Assembly: GCF_000010505.1 (NCBI RefSeq)
Contig: NC_010729.1
Coordinates: 668,501 to 732,500 of the forward strand
DNA from: Porphyromonas gingivalis ATCC 33277
Lineage (GTDB): Bacteria > Bacteroidota > Bacteroidia > Bacteroidales > Porphyromonadaceae
Length of the DNA stretch: 64,000 bases
Direction of reading: 5' to 3'
A program made the translations under genes and the position numbers. A model generated the notes under the pieces. The model had not been told where the DNA came from, searched no databases, and saw only the letters and a program-made list of their open reading frames with translations. This document shows positions 2,747-59,478 of the stretch, piece by piece. Within the stretch, counting starts at the first letter, position 1; the number at the start of each line of letters is the position of its first letter.

Positions 2747-2787
2747 AGAAAGAGTGCGCCTGATCTTTGTGATCGGCGCACTCTTTT
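2747..2787. terminator. Bidirectional terminator between HU-like gene and dehydrogenase
   Basis: Stem AAAGAGTGCGCC (2749-2760) pairs with GGCGCACTCTTT (2775-2786), with GATC pairing inside, flanked by A and T runs. It follows the HU-like gene on the minus strand. Confidence 0.7.
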
Positions 2788-2836
2788 CGTTGTTTGGTCC
2801 TATGGACAGTCTATTGGTATCCGGATCGTATTCGGG

Positions 2837-3343
2837 TTAGAGCCCTCCTCCTCCTGATCCCTGATTGCCACCACCGGTTTGAGAATTGCTATCGCCTGCA
2901 TTGGATGAAGCACCTGCCGGAAGCGGCTTGCCGTACTCGGCGAACTTGAGATCCGGAGCGATCAGCGTACAATCCCGTTCGCGAGTGACCGTATTGTAAC
3001 GACACTCTGCCCTGAAATTGACCCGAACGGAGTTGAACTGGGAGGCTTTCACATCCTCTTTCTTCTCCACTCCCGATCCTTTGGCCTGTGCAATGAGACG
3101 GAAACAACCGATGCCGTCGAGCTTGATCTTCTTGCCCGAAGCCAATTCCCTGCGCATGACGATGCCCAAATCGCGCAGGATACCGAATACATCGCCCGGG
3201 CTGGCTCCCGAAAGTTCTGAGATTTGTTCTGCGATGTGCAGGGTGGAGGCAGTGCTGCCGTTGATGACTGTCTGCGGATACCACAGCTTCTTGCCTGTTG
3301 CCTTGTGGGCAATACAGGATTGTCTTCTTTTGAAGAATAACAT
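2837..3343 (-). CDS. HU-related DNA-binding protein with Gly-rich tail
   Basis: 168-residue protein of the HU-like family common in Bacteroidota (HU_rel/HU-HIG type). The first 120 or so residues fit an HU fold: VINGSTASTLHIAEQISELSG, then GDVFGILRDLGIVMRREL and KIKLDGIGCFRL, equivalent to the helix pair and the start of the beta-arm region of HU. The last 35 residues are low complexity, ending in QTGGGNQGSGGGGL, a tail often seen in this family. Expected role: nucleoid-associated DNA binding in the cytoplasm. It is transcribed away from efp and is preceded by a good promoter. Target sites are unknown; a phased AT-rich box array lies 300-400 bases upstream. Confidence 0.85.
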   Translation of the reverse strand: MLFFKRRQSCIAHKATGKKLWYPQTVINGSTASTLHIAEQISELSGASPGDVFGILRDLGIVMRRELASGKKIKLDGIGCFRLIAQAKGSGVEKKEDVKASQFNSVRVNFRAECRYNTVTRERDCTLIAPDLKFAEYGKPLPAGASSNAGDSNSQTGGGNQGSGGGGL

Positions 3344-3454
3344 AATAATTGAAAGAATTAATGATTTAATAATGCGGACTTTTCCTGTCCATTAATTTAA
3401 TAATAGCAATCGAGAGATCGATTCGGCGCCATCCTCTTCTCTCTGTTTGCACTG

Positions 3455-3487
3455 CAAAGATAAGGGTAAAGAATCCGATCGTCCAAA
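3455..3487 (-). promoter_or_regulatory. Candidate promoter of the HU-like gene
   Basis: Minus-strand TATCTTTG (3455-3462) with TTTG (3484-3487) after a 21-base spacer. The leader to the ATG at 3343 would be about 105 bases. Confidence 0.5.
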
Positions 3488-3497
3488 TGTTTTGCAG

Positions 3498-3849
3498 AAA
3501 AAAGTTTTCAACAACGAAGGGTGCTTTGCTCTTTATATATAAAACGGCTTCCGTATTTCTTAGAAAAAGGCTTCGAAGCACTCTTCCGGCTTTCGTAAGG
3601 GGAGCTGAAATCCGGTTATTCGGAGTTGTCCGAATGATTTATATATAAAGTATTTTCGATTAATATATAAATCGATTTTTATTTATATATTAATCGTTTT
3701 CATTTTGTATATAAATCGAAAACGTTTTATATATAGATCGTCAGCCGTTCGATGGGGAAAAGACGCCGAAGAAACTTTTCTTGAAAGCATAAAAAAGCAA
3801 GGCACCCGCTCGGAGTTCGACAGGAACTTCGGCGGGTGCCTTGCTTTTT
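3498..3849. repeat. Phased AT-box element, copy A
   Basis: Contains AAAAGTTTTCAACAACGAAG (3500-3519, preceded by two more A), then five TATATAAATCG-like boxes starting at 3640, 3664, 3684, 3708 and 3730, then a GC-rich hairpin at 3797-3844. Copy B at 42541-42858 repeats the same order. In both copies the motif-to-first-box distance is exactly 142 bases, although the sequence between is not similar. No ORF. Function unknown. Confidence 0.65.
3791..3849. terminator. Strong bidirectional terminator downstream of efp
   Basis: A 13-bp perfect stem, GCAAGGCACCCGC (3797-3809) with GCGGGTGCCTTGC (3832-3844), with further pairing inside, flanked by A6 and T5. It ends the efp transcript on the minus strand and also closes repeat copy A. 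Confidence 0.8.
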
Positions 3850-3878
3850 GTCGTGAGGGATAGAGTCCCTTTTCTTGT

Positions 3879-4445
3879 TTATTCCTTTACTCTACCGATG
3901 TAGGAACCGTCTCGAGTATCCACTTCGATGAGTTCTCCCTCCTGAATGAAGAGTGGTACGCGTACTTCAGCTCCCGTCTCCACAGTCGCCGGCTTCAAGG
4001 TGTTGGTGGCGGTGTCGCCCTTGAGTCCCGGCTCGGTGTAGGTCACACGCAGCTTAACGTGCGGAGGCAATTCGCAGGTGAGCACCGTTTCGCTGGTGGC
4101 ATGTACCATGGCTTCTACCATATCGCCGTCTTTGAGGAACTGGACGCCGTCGATGCTTGCACCCGGTATGGTGATCTGCTCGAACGTTTCGGGGTGCATG
4201 AAGTTGTATCCCATCTCGTCCTGATAGAGGTACTGATAGGGACGTCGTTCTATTCTGACCTCTTCGACCTTGACGCCGCTGTTCCAGGTCTTATCGAGGA
4301 TACGTCCTGTAGCCACGTTCTTGAGTTTGGTGCGGACGAAAGCCGGGCCTTTGCCGGGCTTGACGTGAAGGAATTCGACGATGAAGTAGTACTGTCCCTC
4401 AATTTCGAGACACATGCCGTTGCGAAAGTCTGCCGTTGTAGCCAT
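3879..4445 (-). CDS. efp: Elongation factor P
   Basis: 188 residues, the normal size. EF-P binds between the P and E sites of stalled ribosomes and relieves polyproline stalling. The N-terminal KOW-like domain carries the tip loop [17 protein letters not shown], with the lysine of PGKGPA near residue 34 in the position modified in some bacteria. Two OB-type domains follow, ending in the conserved [14 protein letters not shown]. The start at 4443-4445 gives the normal [12 protein letters not shown] terminator follows. A 131-base gap separates it from the upstream lamin-tail gene, with a TATTTTTG box at 4548-4555 as possible promoter. Confidence 0.97.
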
Positions 4446-4547
4446 TTGGGTATAATCGTTTTTTTAATGATGACGAAAGGGGTAGGGGGCGGTTCTCGAA
4501 ATGCTGCCGATCCTTCGGGATATAGGCAAAGCCTCCTGTTGCGGAGG

Positions 4548-4555
4548 CAAAAATA
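4548..4555 (-). promoter_or_regulatory. efp: Possible -7 box for efp
   Basis: Minus-strand TATTTTTG fits TAnnTTTG about 100 bases before the efp ATG; no clear -33 element. Confidence 0.3.
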
Positions 4556-4576
4556 AGAAAAATTGTCGGTGCCGGC

Positions 4577-7869: not shown

Positions 7870-7950
7870 GAATCTAGACATATACCTTCGGTGTTGATAA
7901 GTTTTTGTTCGTATCTCCAAGATTATTTCTCTCGTTTATGCGTTATTGGC

Positions 7951-23748: not shown

Positions 23749-24296
23749 TAGACCGTTACACAATAACCCTTCCACCCCCTCATATTGATCAAGACAGACA
23801 CAAGCATTGATTTGACAGAGAAAGGAGAGCTTCATGCAGTCTTTGCGAACCTCAAGTATATACCTGAAGGAAACTTTGGGAAATCTCTGTTTACTTGGCA
23901 GTCATAAACCTGCTCATTGATCTTTCCCTGAGATACAAAGAATGAACTCATACGAGAGGATACTATGGTCACATACGAGAGGATACTATGGTCACATACG
24001 AGAGGATACTATGGTCACATACGAGAGTATACTATGGTCTCATACGAGAGGATACTATGGTCTCATACGAGAGGATACTATGGTCTCATACGAGAGGATA
24101 CTATGGTCTCATATGAGAGGATACTATGGTCTCATATGAGAGGATACTATGGTCACATACGAGAGGATACTATGGTCTCATACGAGAGGATACTATGGTC
24201 TCACATGAGAGGATACTATGGTCTATTGATGGAAGATACCATCTGCTATGTGTCGGACGGCTGGTTCGGGGAGTCGGAGGTTCCGTATGAGCTGTA
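23749..24296. mobile_element. MITE239/BrickBuilt-type element with 23-bp array
   Basis: 23749-23949 is homologous to the left part of MITE239 at 36286, starting with a degenerate end (TAGACCGTTACA) and sharing the stretch GATCAAGACAGACACAAGCA. Where MITE239 goes on to its right end, this copy enters a 23-bp tandem array (23954-24227) followed by a tail (about 24223-24296) that is shared with the second array at 59476-59556. A clear right terminal repeat and target duplication were not found. Published 'BrickBuilt' elements of P. gingivalis have this build. Confidence 0.75.
23954..24227 (+). repeat. 23-bp minisatellite array 1
   Basis: Twelve units, eleven complete, starting every 23 bases from 23954 to 24207. 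Each starts GAGAGGATACTATGGTCTC or the variant with GGTCAC, then four variable bases (mostly ATAC or ATAT). Plus-strand frames stay open because most units have no stop triplet and 23 is not a multiple of three, so long frames encoding a 23-residue repeat (RILWSHTRGYYG...) are a side effect. No spacers, so not CRISPR. Confidence 0.95.
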
Positions 24297-42540: not shown

Positions 42541-42858
42541 AAAAAAGTTTTCAACAACGAAGACGAGTTTGGAACGATTCCAAATAAGCATCCGTGGAGA
42601 AGAAAAAAGCAAGGCAAAAGTGATGGGAAAATGGACTTTTACAGATCGAAATACCACTTAAAACAAGTGAGACAACGATCTGTATATAAAACATTTTCAA
42701 TTTATATATAAATCGTTTTTGTTTTGTATATAAATCGTTTCCAATAAATATATAGATCGTAAATGATTTGTATATAAATCGCAGGCTCAAAAAAGCCTTT
42801 TCAGTAGCTGATATAAAAGAAGCACCCGCCGAGTTCTACGGAGAACTCCGACGGGTGC
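42541..42858. repeat. Phased AT-box element, copy B
   Basis: Contains AAAAGTTTTCAACAACGAAG (42543-42562, preceded by two more A), five TATATAAATCG-like boxes starting at 42683, 42705, 42727, 42749 and 42771 (exactly 22 bases apart), and a hairpin GCACCCG...CGGGTGC at 42822-42858. Same order and orientation as copy A at 3498-3849. No ORF. Confidence 0.65.
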
Positions 42859-43400
42859 AGTCCGGATATGTATGTGGTGGGGCCTATGCCAAGATGCTAT
42901 CTTACTGCATGTGATTTGAAGTAGATGTACGACTTTCCTCTACAATCTCGGATCGGATCGGGGGCTGTTGCTGTGCCGGAATATCCGAATAGGAGCCTGT
43001 TCGGGCTTGATGCCGGATGATCGGTCATGGTCGGTGGTTTATGGATGTGTGGCATACTAATATAATACTCTCTTTTTTCAGTTAATTGCTCGCTTCCAAT
43101 ACACGGGGAAATCCATTGTTCGGAGCAATGCTTTTCGGAAGGCAAAATTAGCCAAATCTTTTTTCTTCCACCAACGGCTATTGCACTTCAGGGTGTAAGC
43201 TGCATGATGCAATTTTTGGGGGAAATATTTGCATAATTTAAATTCATTTTCTACATTGTGGCCGAAAAACAACTGTATAGAAACCATCTTATGAAAAACG
43301 GCGAAAATCCACCAAGCACATTGGCGGCAGACTTGTAAATACAGAGTCACGTCGCACCTCTCCGTGAAAAATAATCAACTAAAATCATTTGAAGACAAAT
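42859..43400. other. Long leader/intergenic region before the exported-protein cluster
   Basis: No gene recognised. It includes a possible promoter (TTTG at 43228-43231, 20 bases, TACATTGT at 43252-43259, imperfect), implying a leader of about 130 bases. Confidence 0.35.
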
Positions 43401-58943: not shown

Positions 58944-59068
58944 TTTTCCTATACTCAATGGACTGTAGGGGGCAGTGCTTTTCCGCTATTGTGTGTAGGC
59001 TTCTCTCTTTCTCCTCCGATACCTTGAGATCGGGTGTTGTGTTTCGAGCTAATAAGGTGAGTTTATAC

Positions 59069-59478
59069 GAGAGGATACTATGGTCTCATACGAGAGGATA
59101 CTATGGTCTCCTATGAGAGGATACTATGGTCTTATACGAGAGGATACTATGGTCTCCTATGAGAGGATACTATGGTCTCATACGAGAGGATACTATGGTC
59201 TCCTATGAGAGGATACTATGGTCTCATATAAGAGGATATTATGGTCTCATACGAGAGGATACTATGGTCTCCTATGAGAGGATACTATGGTCTCATATAA
59301 GAGGATATTATGGTCTCATACGAGAGGATACTATGGTCTCATACGAGAGGATACTATGGTCTCATATAAGAGGATACTATGGTCTCATACGAGAGGATAC
59401 TATGGTCTCATACGAGAGGATACTATGGTCTCATATGAGAGGATACTATGGTCTCATATAAGAGGATACTATGGTCTA
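59069..59478 (+). repeat. 23-bp minisatellite array 2 (BrickBuilt)
   Basis: Eighteen units, seventeen complete, every 23 bases from 59069; the last starts at 59460. Core GAGAGGATACTATGGTCTC with the four variable positions ATAC, ATAT or CTAT; some units start AAGAGG or have GGATATTATGG. The tail after the array (59476-59556) matches that after array 1. The left MITE239 half found at array 1 is absent here. Long open frames across it are a by-product of the stop-poor unit. Confidence 0.95.

Follow-up and report, generated by a model that had tools for sequence, protein, structure and literature searches.

A window of 64,000 nucleotides, the whole stretch of DNA analysed, forms part of the chromosome of Porphyromonas gingivalis ATCC 33277, a single contig of 2,354,886 bases (termed G000 below). 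Two copies of an intergenic repeat element, copies A and B, are found in it. Copy A lies between a gene for a HU-HIG DNA-binding protein and efp, the gene for elongation factor P; it consists of a leader motif, an array of five AT-rich near-dyads and a GC-rich hairpin. The coordinates are in Table 1.

Table 1. Features of copies A and B and of the genes next to copy A (positions in the window)
Feature	Position	Strand	Remarks
HU-HIG DNA-binding protein gene	2837..3343	-	PF18291; adjoins copy A
Candidate -7 element of HU-HIG promoter	3455..3462	-	TATCTTTG; by eye; points away from copy A
Copy A leader motif	3500..3519	+	exact match to AAAAGTTTTCAACAACGAAG
Copy A core 9-mer	3505-3513		TTTTCAACA; DnaA-box-like; within leader
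Copy A extra AT-rich dyad	3532..3543		TTTATATATAAA
Copy A array of five AT-rich near-dyads	3635..3740		cores 3642, 3664, 3686, 3708, 3730
Copy A GC-rich hairpin	3792..3849	-	T-runs next to hairpin on both strands
Elongation factor P gene (efp)	3879..4445	-	other side of copy A
Copy B leader motif	42543..42562	+	exact match to AAAAGTTTTCAACAACGAAG
Copy B 9-mer	42548-42556		TTTTCAACA; within leader
Copy B 17-bp palindrome	42568..42584		TTTGGAACGATTCCAAA
Copy B array of five near-dyads	42676..42781		cores 42683, 42705, 42727, 42749, 42771
Copy B terminator hairpin	42822..42858	-	of presumed minus-strand small transcript
Copy B candidate -7 element	43143..43150	-	TAATTTTG; of presumed small transcript reaching terminator

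Several parts of copy A had been predicted from the letters of the window. The shared upstream motif is borne out by the exact leader matches in both copies, and the gene described as HU-like does match the HU-HIG profile PF18291 (E 9.1e-16). The GC-rich hairpin that follows the boxes has a perfect stem of 18 bp (3792-3809/3832-3849), and we infer that minus-strand transcription from efp ends there. The five boxes themselves are real. Their mean spacing of 22.5 bp is not, since a TATATAAA-type core read in one register gives a period of exactly 22 bp (TRF also reports 22); the box starts given as 3640 and 3684 were 2 bp out of register and belong at 3642 and 3686. In copy B the period is likewise exactly 22 bp across all five near-dyads. 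The distance from motif to first box, originally said to be exactly 142 in both copies, measures 142 in copy A but 140 in copy B; among the copies listed, 140 is the commonest value, and 118 and 141 are also present. Matches to TATATAAATCG with at most two mismatches number 34 in the window, as against 17.5 +/- 4.0 in shuffled sequence (0 of 100 shuffles reach 34).

Copy A is an odd member of its family, having neither the small transcription unit nor the palindrome TTTGGAATSATTCYAAA, which other copies carry near the place equivalent to 3532..3543. It also belongs to an 1818-bp block comprising the HU-HIG gene, the element and efp, which is present twice at 100% identity (window 2749-4566 and, on the minus strand, G000 1565369-1567186). 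The edges of the duplicated block are at the HU terminator and just upstream of efp. Two efp-side relatives, both at contig ends, are found at 90-92% identity in another Porphyromonas species, G007.

A typical copy, read on the minus strand, starts with TAnnTTTG, the Bacteroidetes -7 promoter consensus, which is followed by a region of ~250 nt and an intrinsic-terminator hairpin. Beyond the terminator, five AT-rich near-dyads follow one another every 22 bp; next come a spacer of constrained length, the 17-bp palindrome and the leader with TTTTCAACA.

Copies A and B are not the only two. A BLAST search of G000 with one copy returned 29 copies covering at least 268 of the 381 query bases, together with partial matches; with the copy-A pair and a copy split by an insertion sequence (IS), the 2.35-Mb chromosome has 32 element loci. 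The IS that interrupts the split copy (L223, G000 1810900-1813200) carries an open reading frame for a DDE transposase. Allowing up to three mismatches, the leader motif has 36 matches in G000 (24 exact) and, read backwards, none. A pattern of leader plus palindrome occurs 30 times in G000, 41 times in G007 and 27 times in G008, a third Porphyromonas species; it is absent from the remaining 23 of the 26 Porphyromonas genomes compared, four of which are less than 90% complete. One genome, G022, gave a single weak BLAST match (E 6e-4).

The 32 copies show no significant clustering along the chromosome (KS P 0.45). The densest 0.7-Mb arc holds 18 of them (P 0.04, with the arc length picked post hoc). 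In centromeres of the parS type a few sites are clustered near the origin; here 32 sites are spread along the chromosome. GC skew in 20 sampled stretches is mostly positive to ~0.73 Mb, mixed, and mostly negative beyond ~1.08 Mb, and the mixed interval leaves no terminus fixed.

At 15 of the 20 G007 loci fetched, a flanking gene is common to a G000 copy, which indicates that many element copies are old and have been kept. Three G008 copies share flanking genes with G000, on both sides in the pair L031/L066 and on one side in L016/L126 and L003/L121; their array identities are 59%, 23% and 27%, respectively. L004 and L141 concern one gene that is preceded directly by a solo leader in G000 and by a whole element in G007, and the G007 element has the opposite orientation to the nearby G000 copy. 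The difference is possibly due to inversion or loss.

What is kept between species is the spacing. In-register dyads and leaders were counted in 29 of the 32 G000 loci (copy A, its duplicate and the IS-split copy were omitted), in 20 of the 41 G007 leaders (those fetched) and in 19 of the 27 G008 leaders (20 were fetched; L066/L079, the L031 orthologue with a different box form, was omitted). Measured from the palindrome end, the strongest mean dyad peaks in G000 and G007 are at 96, 118, 140, 162 and 184, with weaker peaks elsewhere, and those in G008 are at 96/97, 119, 163 and 185. Dyad centres fall at 96+22k with residue 0 in 71 of 82 cases in G000 and 51 of 55 in G007; in G008, 27 of 33 fall at residue 0 or +1. 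When residues 0 and +1 are both taken as in register for all three species, the counts compared with 300 dinucleotide shuffles are 79 versus a mean of 0.95 (maximum 7) for G000, 51 versus 0.70 (maximum 4) for G007, and 27 versus 0.39 (maximum 4) for G008, all of these counts taking in related and hence non-independent copies. An origin of the boxes in AT-rich background is ruled out by the shuffles, both for the boxes of the window and for the in-register dyads.

The letters of the arrays are far less constant. By ungapped identity, G000 and G008 arrays agree at 34%, and G008 arrays among themselves at 43%. At least one in-register dyad is present in 13 of the 19 G008 copies and two or more in 8, while 6 have none; of the 27 in-register dyads, 19 occupy the second or fourth slot, so that the G008 case rests mainly on these two slots. 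In 14 orthologous G000/G007 pairs, the leader is gap-free in all 14 and the spacer in 13, the exception being one single-base gap; four pairs differ in array length by one 22-bp unit and two by a single base. This comparison omits L004/L141, whose copies are in opposite orientation. That geometry is under selection, as the original prediction had proposed, is supported by the 68 copies from three species, in which spacing is kept and sequence is not, with the shuffles as control; neither the copy number, at 32 loci in this one P. gingivalis strain, nor the background speaks against it. The register outlasting the letters in G008 thus supports selection on geometry and, at the level of sequence comparison, a putative phased protein-binding array.

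The leader has a second kind of conservation. The 9-mer TTTTCAACA is the most conserved stretch within 70 surrounding bases in each of the three species. Among leaders found with the pattern, which itself favours TTTTCAACA, it is present in all 30 of G000, in 39 of the 41 of G007 and in 18 of the 27 of G008; six of the G008 leaders read TTATCAACA instead. Sites of the class TTWTCAACA are found twice upstream of dnaA in both G000 and G007, 69 bp apart and ~240 and 306 bp away from the gene. Upstream of dnaA in 23 Porphyromonas genomes there are 13 such sites (shuffled mean 0.56, maximum 3), and the canonical class TTWTNCACA has 18 in the same genus (shuffled 1.78). Outside the genus the enrichment of TTWTCAACA is marginal: the 29 genomes compared have 5 such sites, against a mean of 1.22 in shuffles (maximum 5). 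The enrichment of this 9-mer class upstream of dnaA is suggestive of the leader core being a DnaA-type box, and of a link between the element and replication, and is suggestive only.

The 15-mer TTWTCAACAMYSAAG has five matches without mismatch in G000 that are not in elements, and there are six matches with one mismatch. Three of the five are upstream of genes, namely dnaA, rsmH (window 7892) and a ribonucleotide reductase gene, and a fourth is a solo leader at 586816; the fifth, at 638034, is inside a topoisomerase gene and was taken as a chance match, not an element. The match near rsmH belongs to a solitary leader-like motif with TTATCAACA (window 7886-7905, minus strand), ~110 bp upstream of the gene, whose 20 letters are identical to the leader of some G008 copies.

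In Porphyromonas the presence of TTWTNCACA upstream of dnaA varies with residues of DnaA domain IV: it is found in 1 of 14 genomes with HA or HS and in 9 of 10 with HT (Fisher 7e-5, a value overstated because the genomes are related). For TTWTCAACA no association with the DnaA residue was found, either in Porphyromonas (7/14 versus 2/10, P 0.21) or with 29 genomes of the order added (12/42 versus 2/10, P 0.71). According to a passage of one published study, oriC of Bacteroidetes is commonly far from dnaA (PMC4755523), so that sites upstream of dnaA need not mark an origin. On the same ground, an origin at dnaA, which had been assumed for relating element orientation to replication, was set aside as unsafe.

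Certain features of the element are shared with known systems. The BOX elements of Streptococcus pneumoniae, mentioned by name in PMC10969869, are modular intergenic repeats with variable internal units; modular build, intergenic position and a variable number of internal units are common to both, a likeness by description only, and we know of no phased dyads or DnaA-type box in BOX elements. The datA and DARS loci and DnaA-box clusters are non-coding; each kind groups several boxes at a locus and is limited to one or a few such loci. The present element is also non-coding with a putative DnaA-type box; in contrast, it has 27-41 loci with one box-like site each. In iteron origins of plasmids such as P1, F and RK2 a DnaA box is accompanied by about five repeats at about 22-bp pitch. 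The element differs in having dyads, in being chromosomal and dispersed, and in that no rep gene was seen.

BrickBuilt of P. gingivalis has 19 copies in ATCC 33277 and homologues in P. gulae and, as described in PMC4596501, resembles the element in its intergenic position and its leader-repeats-tail plan. That description differs in giving 23-nt repeats of other sequence, long variable arrays and, in some copies, IS5-like terminal inverted repeats. The two are not the same, as judged from the BrickBuilt consensus quoted there, the 23-nt AGAYCATARTATCCTCTCRTRTG, versus the 22-bp CGATTTATATATAAATCG-type repeat of the element (PMC4596501). BrickBuilt ends (GAGACC..., three types, at most two mismatches) are near only 4 of 29 G000 copies, and on both sides only at L013. 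Two 23-bp tandem arrays elsewhere in the window (23947-24224 and 59065-59477) have a unit resembling the BrickBuilt minisatellite consensus. The repeats of the element have probably been seen before: according to the same 2015 paper, 22-nucleotide tandem repeats had been reported earlier in strain W83, without locations (PMC4596501), and these may be the present arrays; the repeat length is the same, and sequence and architecture are absent from the passage concerned. PINSR of Prevotella intermedia, of 188 bp with 177 copies in OMA14, is also intergenic, lineage-specific and present in many copies, a likeness by description only (PMC4755523). In the literature searched, which was open-access and left most subscription papers outside its scope, a description of the element was not found.

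The element has general traits of a MITE, being short, intergenic, multi-copy and, with genes called by a home-made codon score, without a transposase gene. No terminal inverted repeats or target-site duplications of its own were seen by eye at the ends of L013 and L033, and no clean empty sites were found for L033, L135 and L142. From its sequence, it may be described as an intergenic repeat of the interspersed kind that resembles a phased protein array in character.

The transcription unit has to be weighed as well. TAnnTTTG lies 229-278 bp ahead of the terminator in 19 of 19 G008 copies and, among copies with a located terminator, in 16 of 18 in G007 (231-277 bp) and 23 of 26 in G000 (183-303 bp), these being counts without a shuffle control. 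In the terminator, 11 of the 17 pairs have changed on both sides of the stem, a count that holds for each of two alignments, one of 17 of the 18 located G008 transcripts (L119, a near copy of L077, was omitted) and one of 13 of the 20 G000 and 8 of the 12 G007 located transcripts. Such compensatory changes are family-wide evidence, copy B itself being outside both alignments. For four further helices in G008, pairing is 63.1%, as against 28-43% when slid, and 0 of 500 shuffles are as high; this structure was hand-drawn from the row of L127 plus one RNAalifold helix and leans to L127. The promoter motif, the covarying terminator and the helices are what would be expected of a multi-copy family of small-RNA or small-peptide genes, with the dyads as downstream or regulatory DNA. 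In favour of a peptide, 4 of the 12 usable orthologous pairs also retain an open reading frame that matches in length and place, with pN/pS of 0.84, 0.59 and 0.38 in three of the four (3 to 6 synonymous changes), which makes a weak case for a small coding gene. However, the transcript region is gapped in 11 of the 14 orthologous pairs, and at L005, L031 and L032 a protein gene replaces it, with array and leader retained. RNAalifold gave the terminator and no other helix for the G000 and G007 transcripts. Rfam returned no family at gathering score in the 64-kb window, and four matches with E up to 1 at 15 loci, all below gathering score. An RNA or peptide gene as the essence of the family is improbable.

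A somewhat better chance, though still an unlikely one, is given to an interspersed repeat of the same sort as BOX, BrickBuilt or PINSR, selfish or a relic and without function, whose geometry would come from master copies. Multiple intergenic copies with varying numbers of repeat units would fit, as would further repeat arrays in the same window and a near-identical pair in G000 (1233513 and 986082, 96%). The flanks of L033 (in G007) and L135 (in G000), copies for which no counterpart was found in the other genome, map far apart, as at rearrangement breakpoints. A relic does not readily account for a register kept in G008 at 34% identity, nor for the compensatory terminator changes. The age of many copies, seen in the shared flanking genes, also argues against it, as do the lack of a transposase in the element and the scarcity of BrickBuilt or IS5-type ends. 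Far less probable again is that the neighbouring HU-HIG protein, to whose gene the original prediction had pointed, uses the element as its site for loading or organisation. The HU-HIG gene does adjoin copy A, and another, at 1574.6 kb, has a one-mismatch motif upstream. The distribution speaks against it: of the 17 HU-HIG genes only 2, which both belong to the duplicated copy-A block, lie next to an element, and HU genes share the motif with the family, not the array. Two of the 17 HU-HIG matches in G000 have an internal stop. HU-class proteins bind DNA with low sequence specificity, and HU-HIG is an unlikely binder of the array.

The reading preferred here, at a probability of about 0.45, is that the element is a dispersed compound intergenic unit whose dyads would be bound by a dimeric protein and whose leader possibly holds a DnaA-type box. 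Dyads two helical turns apart would present the same DNA face, and a dimeric DNA-binding protein on adjacent dyads could form a nucleoprotein patch that separates the small transcription unit from the gene that follows. The letters of the boxes would be free to shift together within a species as the binding protein shifts, and the pitch would not. More weakly, a DnaA-type box in the leader might fix the position of the patch relative to DnaA, and the leader may link the patch with replication or serve, at 27-41 sites, to titrate DnaA; each element has one such box, and this small number counts against titration. The small RNA could act in trans or might merely mark the unit. A bolder form of the proposal is a class of nucleoprotein site with a DnaA-type box, a palindrome, five phased dyads and a structured transcription unit, present 27-41 times per genome, in which the preference of the binder has switched between species and the sites have changed in concert with the 22-bp pitch fixed. 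This form is doubtful, and less probable than the relic repeat.

In the P. gingivalis group such a nucleoprotein site, if it were real, would link DnaA with the organisation of the chromosome or with transcription nearby. Repeats scattered through bacterial genomes are usually classed as remains of mobile elements. In the present case spacing outlives sequence from one species to another; this points to a functioning protein array and offers a direct route to fishing out its binder. Should the leader be a DnaA box, control of replication would become testable in an important oral bacterium.
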